Source: an uncultured Clostridia bacterium | Lineage (GTDB): Bacteria > Bacillota > Clostridia > Christensenellales > CAG-1252 | Assembly: GCA_945482995.1 (NCBI GenBank) | Contig: CALYRM010000001.1 | Location: forward strand, 65,413 to 105,295 | Length of the DNA stretch: 39,883 bases | Reading direction: 5' to 3' | Shown here: piece after piece, positions 30,640 through 34,470 of the stretch | How positions within the stretch are numbered: the first letter of the stretch is position 1 | Layout: the number at the start of each line of letters is the position of its first letter | Notes under the pieces: generated by a model | Seen by the model: only the letters and a program-made list of their open reading frames with translations | Databases searched by the model: none | What the model was told of the DNA's origin: nothing | Position numbers and translations under genes: made by a program

Positions 30640-33051
30640 ATGAAAGAATACAATTTTAAAGAAATAGAAAAGAAATGGCAGGACATATGGGAAAAAGAAG
30701 GTAGATACGAAGTCGCCAATCACCAAGAGGGAAAGGAAAATTGCTACATCTTGATAGAGTTCCCATATCCGAGCGGAAAGGGCTTGCATACAGGTCACAT
30801 TCGTTCGTATGCATCAATGGATGCCGTTGCTCGTAAAAAGAGATTGCAGGGCTATAACGTATTATTCCCAATGGGCTGTGACTCTTTTGGACTTGAAGCC
30901 GAAAGAACTGCAATCAGAGAACATAAACTTCCACAAGAAATTGTTGCAAGAAATATCGCTACCTTCAAATCACAATTAAAGACGGTTGGATTGTCCTTTG
31001 ACTGGTCAAGAGAATTAAGCACCGCCGATCCTAAGTATTATAAGTGGACACAATGGCTATTTTTGCAATTCTACAAAAAAGGTCTTGCCGAAAAACGCAC
31101 TACCACAATAAACTGGTGTCCGAACTGTGGAGTTTTGGCAAATGAGGAAATCGAGGACGGTCGTTGCTGTCAATGCGGTCAAGAAACCACTCAAAAGCCC
31201 AAAGCACAATGGGTATTAAAAATGACCGAGTATGCAGATAGACTTGACAAAGATCTCGATCAAACCAACTACATGGAGCATATCAAGCTTGGTCAAAGAA
31301 ATTGGATAGGCAGAAGCGAAGGCGTTCAAGTTAAGTTCAAAATAGTGCAAGGTGGCGAGTTTGAAATATTCACCACTTGTATAGAAACGATATATGGTAT
31401 TACCTTTATGGTACTTGCACCCGAGCATCCATTGGTAGAAGGCTTTTTGAATAAAATTCAAAATAGAGAGGAAGTCGAAAAATACATTGCTGACGCACGC
31501 AAAAAAAGCGATTTTGAACGTACCGAAATGGTTAAAACAAAGACCGGTTGCGAGTTAAAAGGTATAACTTGTATCAACCCGGTAAACGGCAAAGAGGTTC
31601 CGCTATTTATAGGTGACTTCGTATTGGCTAACTACGGTACAGGTGCAGTTATGGCTGTTCCGGCACATGACCAAAGAGACTATGAGTATGCAAAGGCTCA
31701 TAACATAGATATGATTCAAGTAATCGACGGCGCAAGCATTAGCGAAAAGGCTTTTGAAAAACACGATTATTTGGGCGTAGGATGTAAGCTTATGAATAGC
31801 CAAGAATTTACGGGAATGACCGTTGAAGAGGCAAAGGAAGCAATTACACAAAAACTTGAAAAAGCAGGAATCGCAAAGAGAGTATTAAATTTCAGAATGA
31901 GGGATTGGATATTCTCAAGACAACGTTATTGGGGCGAACCGATCCCAATGATTAATTGCCCGAAATGCGGTTGGGTACCCGTTCCCGAAGAAGACTTGCC
32001 CGTAACGCTTCCAATAGTTGATAGCTACGAGCCGACTAAAGACGGCGAATCTCCTTTGTCTGTAATTGACGAATGGGTAAACGTTAAATGTCCTTGTTGC
32101 GGTGGCGCAGCAAAAAGAGAAACCGACACAATGCCGGGTTGGGCAGGTAGTAGCTGGTATTTCCTAAGATATTGCGATGCTCATAACGACAAAGAATTTG
32201 CTAGTCAGGACGCATTGAAAGCTTGGTTACCTGTCAATCTCTATAACGGCGGTAACGAGCACACCAATAGACACCTACTATATGCACGGTTTTGGGTAAA
32301 ATTCCTTTATGATATAGGCTTATCTCCCGTCTCCGAACCGTTTATGTCAAGAGTAAGCCAAGGTATAATTTTAGGTTCAAACGGCGTTAAAATGAGCAAA
32401 TCATTGGGCAACGTAGTCGATCCTAGAGACGTCATCAACGAGTACGGCGCAGATAGTTTGAGACTATGGGAAGCCTTTATCGGCGACTATTTCGCAACCT
32501 GTTCTTGGGACGATAACGGCACAAAGGCTTGTAACAAATTCCTAAACAAGGTATGGGGTTTGCAAGCGGTTTTGACCGATAGCGAAGAAATGACAAAGGA
32601 ACTTGAATATATCCTTCATACGACAATAAAGAAGGTTACCGAGGATATAGACAACTGCAAGTTTAACACAGCCGTTGCTCAACTTATGACCTGCGTAAAC
32701 GAAATGACAAAACTGGGTAAGGTAAGTAGAGAAGATTACCGTACTTTGCTTCTATTGCTCAATCCGTTCGCACCGCACATAACTGAAGAATTGTGGAACG
32801 AATGTGGATTTAAACCTAACTTTATAGATGCAAAATGGCCAACCTATGACGAAAAGAAACTTGTCAAAGCTGAAGTCGAAATTGTAGTTCAAGTCAACAG
32901 CAAGATAAAAGCAAGAATGGTAATTCCGCAAACCGCAACCGAACAAGAAGTTCTTGAAAAATCCCTTGCAGAACTATCCATTCCAAGAGAAAACGTTATC
33001 AAGGTTATCTACATTGCAGGAAGGTTAATGAATTTAATAGTAAAGAAATAA
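30640..33051 (+). CDS. leuS: Leucyl-tRNA synthetase
   Basis: The protein has 803 residues, the normal bacterial length. It charges tRNA-Leu. HIGH is 'HTGH' (residues 50-53, in 'FPYPSGKGLHTGH'). A zinc knuckle 'CPNCG..CCQCG' follows. The editing domain has 'GTGAVMAVPAHDQRDYEYA' with the conserved Asp, but its Thr-rich peptide reads 'TTCIETIYG' where most LeuRS have TTRPDT. KMSKS is perfect ('KMSKSLGN', 584-588). The C-terminal 'IVVQVNSKIKARMVIP' is typical. AAAGGA precedes the ATG by about 9 bases. It is the second gene of the ileS-leuS operon and ends before a perfect terminator. Confidence 0.95.
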   Translation: MKEYNFKEIEKKWQDIWEKEGRYEVANHQEGKENCYILIEFPYPSGKGLHTGHIRSYASMDAVARKKRLQGYNVLFPMGCDSFGLEAERTAIREHKLPQEIVARNIATFKSQLKTVGLSFDWSRELSTADPKYYKWTQWLFLQFYKKGLAEKRTTTINWCPNCGVLANEEIEDGRCCQCGQETTQKPKAQWVLKMTEYADRLDKDLDQTNYMEHIKLGQRNWIGRSEGVQVKFKIVQGGEFEIFTTCIETIYGITFMVLAPEHPLVEGFLNKIQNREEVEKYIADARKKSDFERTEMVKTKTGCELKGITCINPVNGKEVPLFIGDFVLANYGTGAVMAVPAHDQRDYEYAKAHNIDMIQVIDGASISEKAFEKHDYLGVGCKLMNSQEFTGMTVEEAKEAITQKLEKAGIAKRVLNFRMRDWIFSRQRYWGEPIPMINCPKCGWVPVPEEDLPVTLPIVDSYEPTKDGESPLSVIDEWVNVKCPCCGGAAKRETDTMPGWAGSSWYFLRYCDAHNDKEFASQDALKAWLPVNLYNGGNEHTNRHLLYARFWVKFLYDIGLSPVSEPFMSRVSQGIILGSNGVKMSKSLGNVVDPRDVINEYGADSLRLWEAFIGDYFATCSWDDNGTKACNKFLNKVWGLQAVLTDSEEMTKELEYILHTTIKKVTEDIDNCKFNTAVAQLMTCVNEMTKLGKVSREDYRTLLLLLNPFAPHITEELWNECGFKPNFIDAKWPTYDEKKLVKAEVEIVVQVNSKIKARMVIPQTATEQEVLEKSLAELSIPRENVIKVIYIAGRLMNLIVKK

Positions 33052-33087: not shown

Positions 33088-33275
33088 TGTCATCCCGACT
33101 AATAATGTCATTCTCAAGCGTGTTGCAACGAAGTCGAAGTATCTAATCCTTGTTCTAAAAGACATAAGGGAGATTGAAATAAATCAATCTCCCTTTTTCG
33201 TTATTCCGACCGAAGTGTAACGGAGTGGAAAAATCTCTTTCTCTTCGTCATGGCGAGCGTAGTCGAGACATCTCT
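33088..33275 (+). repeat. Dispersed repeat copies around the leuS terminator
   Basis: Cores TGTCATCCCGAC (33088), TGTCATTCTCAAGCG with GAAGTCGAAGTATC (33106-33143), CGTTATTCCGACCGAAG with GGAAAAATCTC (33199-33237) and CGTCATGGCGAGCGTAGTCG with AGACATCTC (33246-33275) belong to the same family as the copies at 17.6-22.2 kb. Confidence 0.75.
33166..33198 (+). terminator. Intrinsic terminator of the ileS-leuS operon
   Basis: AAGGGAGATTGA (33166-33177) and TCAATCTCCCTT (33184-33195) are perfectly complementary over 12 bp with a 6-base loop, followed by TTT. It lies between copies of the dispersed repeat. A weaker hairpin ATAACAG/CTGTTAT sits directly behind the leuS stop. Confidence 0.85.
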
Positions 33276-33425
33276 ATATGAACACTGACTCTTTTCGAAG
33301 CATTAGGAAAGCCTAAATAGCAATTGCACATTTAACATTATTGAAACAAGTACAATCACTAAAATTCTTTAATACGTACTGTAGCAAATACAATAATTAT
33401 GCCATCAAATCACGCAGTCCAAAAC

Positions 33426-33527
33426 TCGCTGAAAAGCGAATTTCATCGCGAAAGCGATTTCAGCCCAAAGGCATTTCACTTGCCCTTTAGGGCAAATTTC
33501 ATTGTTTGATAGCAAACGCTATCAAAC
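33426..33527. repeat. Chain of five perfect mini-hairpins joined by TTTCA linkers
   Basis: In order: TCGCT-GAAA-AGCGA (33426-33439), ATCGC-GAAA-GCGAT (33445-33458), GCC-CAAA-GGC (33463-33472), TTGCCC-TTTA-GGGCAA (33480-33495) and GTTTGATAGC-AAAC-GCTATCAAAC (33504-33527). Every loop has four bases. The spacers all contain TTTCA. Stem sequences differ while loop size and linker are constant, which points to selection or a copying mechanism acting on the structure. The function is unknown. It lies between the leuS terminator and the formate/nitrite channel promoter; a leader role for that gene is unlikely because the promoter is downstream. Confidence 0.75.
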
Positions 33528-33551
33528 CTTGCATTGCACATTGTTAAAGCC

Positions 33552-33580: not shown

Positions 33581-33627
33581 AATAGTATATCACAAAACGA
33601 CACTTCATGGGGGGGGTACTTCTTCTT

Positions 33628-34470
33628 ATGCTTTCACCAAAGGAAATTGTAAATAATTACGCATCAATCGCAAAATATAAAACGTCACTACCCTGGCATA
33701 AAACCTTGATTCTTGCCATTTTGGCAGGTATTTTTATTGGCTTGGGTGCATTAGTTAGCACTATAGCAACAGCAAGCAATGGTTCTCGTTTAATCATGGG
33801 ATTGGTGTTTCCTGTCGGGTTGATTATGGTCACATTGTTTGGAGCAGAGTTATTTACAGGAAACTGCTTGATGATATCGCCGCTTATTTCAAAAGAGATT
33901 AAACCCTCTGGCTTCTTCAAGAATTTATCCATTGTTTATGTTGGTAACTTTATAGGCTCGTTGCTTTTGGCAGTATTGATTGTGTACGGCGGTGTACTAA
34001 ATGCAAGTACAACTGTAAGCGCCATAAGTGTAGCCCAAATGAAAGCGACAATGCCGTTTTTAGATTCCTTCGTCAAGGGTATTTTGTGTAATATCTTGGT
34101 ATGTTTGGCAATTTTGGGGTCAACTGTAAGTAAAACTACGGTTGGCAAGTTTGCGGCGATATTCGTTCCTATCTTTACGTTTGTCGTTGCAGGTTTTGAA
34201 CATAGCGTTGCAAATATGTACTATTTGTCTGTGGGCTTGTTAGCAGGCGTAAAAGTGGGTGAAGCGACTTTTACCGTCGCAGACGCTCTTGTAAACTCTC
34301 TTATCCCATCAACATTAGGCAACGTTATCGGCGGTTTTTCTATTGCGCTTGTTCTTCATTTTGTGTATAAAACAACTCAAAAATCGATTTCTTCTCAAGA
34401 AGTAGAGGCAACGGCAGTTAATGTAGAAGATTCAGAAGTAACTGCGGACGAAACTAATCGCCGTCATTGA
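33628..34470 (+). CDS. Formate/nitrite transporter family channel (FocA/NirC-like)
   Basis: The protein has 280 residues with six membrane segments. Family signatures: 'ILAGIFIGLGALVSTIA' in helix 1, 'GLVFPVGLIMVTLFGAELFTGNC' in helix 2, the central His motif region 'FTFVVAGFEHSVANMYYLSVGLL' in helix 5, and a conserved C-terminal helix 'LGNVIGGFSIALVLHFVY'. FNT proteins are pentameric channels for formate, nitrite, hydrosulfide or similar small acids, driven by the proton gradient. The start at 33628 (MLSPKEIVNNY) fits the family better than the track start at 33607, where the ATG is followed by a G8 run; the G-run then lies 11 bases upstream and could act as ribosome-binding site. No metabolic partner gene is next to it, so the ion is unknown. 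Confidence 0.85.
   Translation: MLSPKEIVNNYASIAKYKTSLPWHKTLILAILAGIFIGLGALVSTIATASNGSRLIMGLVFPVGLIMVTLFGAELFTGNCLMISPLISKEIKPSGFFKNLSIVYVGNFIGSLLLAVLIVYGGVLNASTTVSAISVAQMKATMPFLDSFVKGILCNILVCLAILGSTVSKTTVGKFAAIFVPIFTFVVAGFEHSVANMYYLSVGLLAGVKVGEATFTVADALVNSLIPSTLGNVIGGFSIALVLHFVYKTTQKSISSQEVEATAVNVEDSEVTADETNRRH

Follow-up and report, generated by a model that had tools for sequence, protein, structure and literature searches.

Gut-1-type hairpin chains in a Clostridia genome as probable end arrays of small elements carrying a four-helix-bundle gene

What kind of element is a chain of five unlike mini-hairpins, strung together by a recurring linker between two protein-coding genes? The chain lies in a 39,883-nucleotide stretch of DNA that was analysed as a whole (hereafter, the window), part of contig C1 in a 2.12 Mb, 94% complete assembly of an uncultured Clostridia bacterium. 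It is intergenic, with leuS (30640-33051, plus strand) upstream and a formate/nitrite transporter gene (33607-34470, plus strand) downstream. The initial annotation had described five perfect mini-hairpins with TTTCA linkers at 33426-33527, and these are indeed present on the plus strand, with stems of 5, 4, 3, 6 and 10 bp. Hairpin H1 (TCGCT-GAAA-AGCGA, 33426-33439) is joined through the linker ATTTCA (33440-33445) to H2 (TCGC-GAAA-GCGA, 33446-33457), whose loop reads C(GAAA)G; the linker TTTCA (33458-33462) leads to H3 (GCC-CAAA-GGC, 33463-33472), ATTTCAC (33473-33479) to H4 (TTGCCC-TTTA-GGGCAA, 33480-33495), and ATTTCATT (33496-33503) to H5 (GTTTGATAGC-AAAC-GCTATCAAAC, 33504-33527). The description of all loops as four-base loops, two of them GAAA, holds for this copy; in other copies the loop length differs, and H2 there carries C(GAA)G, C(GTA)G or C(GATA)G.

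The predicted fold of the chain is far more stable than that of shuffled sequence (z-score -5.4; 0 of 200 shuffles equally stable), and the only run of at least three TTTCA words at such spacing in the whole window is the chain itself. A window scan for stems of at least 4 bp missed it because the H3 stem measures 3 bp. No T-run follows H5 on its 3' side, and the chain is therefore not a plain terminator. About 120-300 bp upstream of the chain, at 33090-33290, lies a second repeat family made of GTCATCCTGAGCG.. and ..GTGGATGAGATCC.. units; this family forms arrays and is also represented at L039, L040, L041, L042 and L043, and a hairpin-chain subfamily is consistently embedded in it.

We then asked whether the chain belongs to a dispersed family. 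A DNA search of the whole genome with a 151-base query returned 37 matches at 70-100% identity, and the copies have unrelated flanks, as expected of a mobile element. Their comparison places the window copy in a repeat unit of about 136 bp, type A, that runs from AATCACGCAGTCC through the five hairpins to CTTGCATTGCACATTG (approximately 33408-33543, plus strand; limits approximate). The initial annotation had proposed searching elsewhere for the same linker with different stems, and many such loci were found; the segment is not unique, and its linker recurs at many sites. At one locus (L032), an ATATCAT-linked chain is directly continued by one with TTTCA linkers, which looks like the product of recombination between two units.

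To evaluate conservation of the fold, 20 copies from the window's genome were aligned under the five-hairpin structure. Within this alignment 92.2% of stem cells were paired, versus 84.1% in shuffles and 27-41% when the partner strand was slid, and 14 of 27 pairs had changed on both sides, versus 6.7 in shuffles (0 of 500 shuffles reached this level). The H1 helix was paired in 97.5% and the H2 helix in 100% of cases; pairs changed on both sides numbered two in H2, three in H4 and seven in H5, and the H3 of the window copy has its pairing register shifted by one relative to other copies. Since pairing and two-sided changes both exceed the shuffled level, selection has maintained the structure, at least in the past of these copies. 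Selection for structure, one of two origins offered in the initial annotation, is thus supported by the compensatory changes in 14 of 27 pairs; no finding within the copy family, in which stems differ through paired changes, requires the other, a copying mechanism such as templated hairpin synthesis or replication slippage. The retention of structure in diverged copies, together with the intergenic position between two co-directional genes, would also suit a REP/BIME-like repeat with a host function in mRNA stabilisation, transcription termination or chromosome organisation. We consider such a function quite unlikely, given the lack of a T-run after H5, a copy number that varies strongly among relatives, and a coupling between linker and protein clade, described below, that would need a separate explanation.

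The initial annotation knew of no named class with this layout; the Rfam family RF01706 (Gut-1) fits, only just above its threshold. The match covers the complete model (positions 1-77) on the minus strand at 33435-33504 with 50.3 bits against a gathering score of 50, and the assignment of the window copy is accordingly marginal. Three hairpins joined by GUGAAAU are found there on the minus strand, of which stems 2 and 3 are shorter than the consensus. Across the genome the Gut-1 covariance model gives 71 matches with E no higher than 1, of which nine exceed the cut-off, a list that overlaps with the 37 DNA-level matches. Gut-1 was found only in human gut in the original description, which treated it among non-coding RNAs and listed it as probably not cis-regulatory (Weinberg et al. 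2010, PMC2864571), and no report of its function was found in the open-access literature.

We next tested whether hairpin chains of this kind accompany genes for S23-type proteins (PF05635). All four PF05635 genes of this genome (four-helix-bundle, 4HB, S23/IVS-type; also TIGR02436) have a hairpin chain directly upstream, and one of them, on contig C71, is interrupted by a stop codon. Contig C1 has no PF05635 gene. Among 61 genomes, Gut-1 matches and 4HB genes occurred together in 16, either one without the other in 3 + 3, and neither in 39 (p = 4e-9; p = 0.004 outside the window's own family). The association was profiled further in a sample of 164 loci from this genome, relatives of the same order and other gut MAGs, in which many 4HB genes have such chains. 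Hairpin density peaked 100-300 nt upstream of 4HB genes, reaching up to 1.75 per 100 nt versus a background of 0.55 (84 loci), and at least five hairpins were present in the 400 nt upstream of 37 of 73 4HB loci, compared to 59 of 1077 control windows; p-values in these comparisons overstate independence because the loci are mutually related. A scan of public genomes added 80 loci, nearly all from gut or rumen Clostridia and three from Akkermansia MAGs.

Hairpin arrays are absent beside some 4HB genes. Several chain-less genes (L127, L133, L135, L164, L169 and others) lie between plain short tandem repeats (AAGTTGA.., CACAGT..) in inverted order, and no hairpin chains were seen by eye at wider 4HB relatives on plasmids of Treponema and Monoglobus. 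Upstream of the plasmid-borne Treponema gene are simple purine-rich repeats. The Monoglobus gene (L291, 780-1310), unannotated and stop-broken, sits within a type I restriction system, with hsdS on one side and hsdR on the other, and is flanked by inverted TAATTAGGAATGAG-like repeats. In the three MAGs labelled Akkermansia (L260, L262 and L286), the 4HB genes have one-sided chains with TTTCAC or ATATCG linkers; if the bin labels hold, the pattern may extend beyond Bacillota. We know of no catalytic function of 4HB proteins and of no catalytic partner. A sequence relative has a solved structure (2rld), and a Xanthomonas member of the family forms a pentameric ring according to a work cited in PMC4990558.

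Next, we examined the linker itself, the word W that recurs between hairpins and that many 4HB genes have in a version of their own, searching for exact words as a one-mismatch version was too noisy. At least five evenly spaced copies of W were found upstream of the gene in 26 of 83 4HB regions, compared to 6 of 957 controls; hairpins between the words are frequent, not universal. When arrays with at least five W were read in order, 68 of 76 switched exactly once from W to its reverse complement (no switch in 6, two switches in 2). If the array upstream of the gene holds W in one orientation only, or is a simple tandem repeat lacking hairpins, its counterpart is often found downstream of the gene. 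At 32 of 153 loci, and in 0 of 834 control frames, at least three copies of W preceded the 4HB gene and at least three of reverse-W followed it. A 4HB gene accompanied by W arrays in opposing orientations is thus the usual arrangement. Long-range pairing between W and reverse-W was considered as the cause of the mirror halves and rejected, since the loops turn over too, which pairing does not need; in predicted folds W/reverse-W pairing is partial.

The linker word is coupled to the protein. When two 4HB proteins were at least 60% identical, they shared their W in 75-100% of cases, versus 1-4% below 60% identity, and the nearest 4HB relative had the same W at 51 of 76 loci, where about 20 would be expected. 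The window's linker, ATTTCA(C/T), is the W of one such clade, which is also represented within the window's genus (L173, genome G002) and is over-sampled in the public scan because the query contained three of its proteins. No 4HB gene of this TTTCA clade was found in the window's 94% complete assembly, and only the TTTCA orientation occurs near the window copy, with no TGAAA array. With one W orientation and no gene, the kinship of this copy is drawn from its linker, its hairpins and the Gut-1 model. We therefore term it a one-sided derivative, as the inverted second half is missing, and non-autonomous, as contig C1 has no PF05635 gene.

The position of the arrays relative to other genes provided a further line of evidence. 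Enough upstream sequence was available for 66 array loci. In 40 of them a same-strand tRNA gene lay no more than 520 nt upstream, and in none was there one on the opposite strand; these tRNA genes represent 13 isotypes and mostly lie 213-286 nt from the 4HB match. Units of the TTTCA clade typically follow tRNA genes of many isotypes, and in the window's own genome gene-less two-sided arrays stand behind several tRNA genes, all with the same terminator, which therefore seems to be part of the unit. At two loci (L051, 1000-2300, contig C5; L052, 1-1100, contig C140; both minus strand), the 26-nt 3' end of a tRNA-Leu lies between two hairpin units, and since on C140 this end follows a tRNA-Arg gene, the unit seems to have brought a foreign tRNA end with it. 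Across the elements as a whole, an att-like duplication of the tRNA end behind them did not exceed the level in shuffled sequence. Units at three loci (L060, L178 and L199) sit at the end of a gene which, judging from its sequence, we take to be a RumA/TrmA-type methyltransferase. At one of these (L060, 500-2177, contig C128), two units stand in tandem, and the 4HB gene of the first is internally deleted, leaving the start codon fused to its C-terminal portion. An empty-site comparison for the window copy yielded no close relative of focA in the genus, and LeuS relatives only about 40% identical.

These positions bear on the idea that the chains are mRNA leaders through which 4HB proteins control their own synthesis, as ribosomal proteins do, with orphan chains as decayed duplicates. 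In many loci the chain is immediately upstream of the start codon, and the coupling of W to the protein clade also speaks for such autocontrol. Arrays in two mirror halves, the second of them behind the gene in many loci, dozens of copies that have no gene, and the placement behind tRNA genes all argue against a leader, making this explanation improbable.

A related question is whether the chain acts as RNA or as DNA, and here the loops are informative. Read on the ATTTCA strand, most have the sequence GNA or GNNA with a closing C-G pair, and their orientation changes together with that of W: right halves hold 39 GN(N)A versus 9 TN(N)C loops, left halves 4 versus 47. In DNA, mini-hairpins of very high stability contain GNA or GNNA loops in which N is any base (PMC4686876), and the loops observed fit this rule, cGN(N)Ag. 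The third base of GNNA loops is purine or pyrimidine at 21:16, and the purine rule of RNA GNRA loops is missing. The mirror halves imply that both DNA strands are equivalent, and together with the DNA-type loop composition they favour single-stranded DNA. From this composition, over a modest number of hairpins, we favour folded single-stranded DNA as the active form.

Gut-1 may alternatively be the gene of a small non-coding RNA that acts as RNA, encoded on the minus strand of the leuS-transporter intergenic region. An Rfam match above the gathering score, the compensatory changes and the classification among ncRNAs that are probably not cis-regulatory (PMC2864571) speak for this reading. We nevertheless regard it as unlikely: the genome holds tens of scattered copies, whose numbers are very uneven among relatives, arrays that invert half-way with their loops and treat both strands alike are unexpected for one RNA, the 21:16 ratio departs from the GNRA rule, and the model match of the window copy is marginal.

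Together, these data are best accounted for if the chain is an end array of 4HB elements that is one-sided and non-autonomous and folds as single-stranded DNA, an explanation that we consider probable. The elements would be small, bounded by inverted W arrays, usually with mini-hairpins between the words, and would hold a single 4HB gene. The 4HB protein, or a complex containing it, would recognise its own W and the folded hairpins, most likely in single-stranded DNA, and would assist in copying or moving the element, in many cases to the sequence immediately downstream of a tRNA gene. The type-A copies would have kept a single end array, without the gene, and would have come to occupy dozens of intergenic locations; the gene-less units and the internally deleted L060 unit fit such non-autonomous derivatives. 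Binding by the 4HB protein, single-stranded DNA as the active form, and movement and its chemistry are what we infer from this pattern; no movement was seen in the sequence data compared.

Candidates for a different partner fared less well. A Y1/RAYT-type transposase acting on single-stranded hairpins could have mobilised REP sequences with the 4HB protein as a bystander, and the constant word before the hairpins does resemble Y1 substrates. The genome contains one Y1 gene, however, of IS200 type by its context and with no chain seen around it, against four 4HB genes that all have chains, and we judge this explanation very improbable. A reverse transcriptase was rejected as partner, the one RVT_1 gene of the genome being located elsewhere. 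An integron-like cassette array, considered for contigs C58 and C6 where several copies occur, was likewise rejected: ordinary genes surround these copies, no integrase was seen by eye among the ORFs, and the copies sit in another repeat family. Neither a transposase nor an integron integrase was found to accompany the chains in this genome.

A broader proposal, which we advance tentatively and at somewhat less than an even chance, is that these elements constitute a new class of minimal mobile element: a 4HB gene of about 115 residues within inverted, clade-specific W arrays with stable DNA mini-hairpins, moving via folded single-stranded DNA to tRNA 3' ends with no known recombinase. Gut-1 RNA would then correspond to the end array of this class, and 23S rRNA intervening sequences would form a further branch. 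The only earlier accounts found in the open-access literature are the 2010 Gut-1 paper and work on intervening sequences (IVS); within that literature, the kinship of Gut-1-type chains with 4HB elements appears to be new. The orphan Rfam family Gut-1 thereby gains a context and a candidate partner protein, and TIGR02436/S23, a widespread family of unknown function, gains a candidate substrate in an array with a clade-coupled linker word. If true, what has been catalogued as a structured RNA motif may be DNA that folds on the opposite strand, and if 4HB proteins bind the arrays, the mobility of S23-coding intervening sequences, and its mode, would become directly testable.

Several known systems share features with these elements. 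REP/BIME sequences, MITEs and attC sites are dispersed, non-autonomous hairpin repeats that may be recognised as folded single-stranded DNA; the chains described here are likewise dispersed, non-autonomous and hairpin-bearing, but consist of several W-hairpin units in two mirror halves. Group IIC introns are located beside terminator hairpins, whereas 4HB units have no reverse transcriptase. The 23S rRNA intervening sequences of Coxiella and Leptospira carry an S23 gene between complementary borders and have been proposed to be formerly mobile (PMC4990558). Like 4HB units they are small elements with one PF05635 gene, yet they replace loops of 23S rRNA helices, whereas 4HB units are found mainly downstream of tRNA genes or other gene ends, and W arrays are a feature of the 4HB units here; the window copy is intergenic, and Rfam finds no rRNA in the window. 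With Gut-1 the likeness is closest in the linker, as GUGAAAU between its hairpins is the reverse complement of the window's ATTTCAC, and in the model itself, which fits the window plus 70 further places in the same genome. Gut-1 was described as a candidate ncRNA of human gut metagenomes; here it is a dispersed repeat tied to 4HB genes, its loop type favours the opposite strand, and its chains also occur in MAGs from the rumen and other animal guts.
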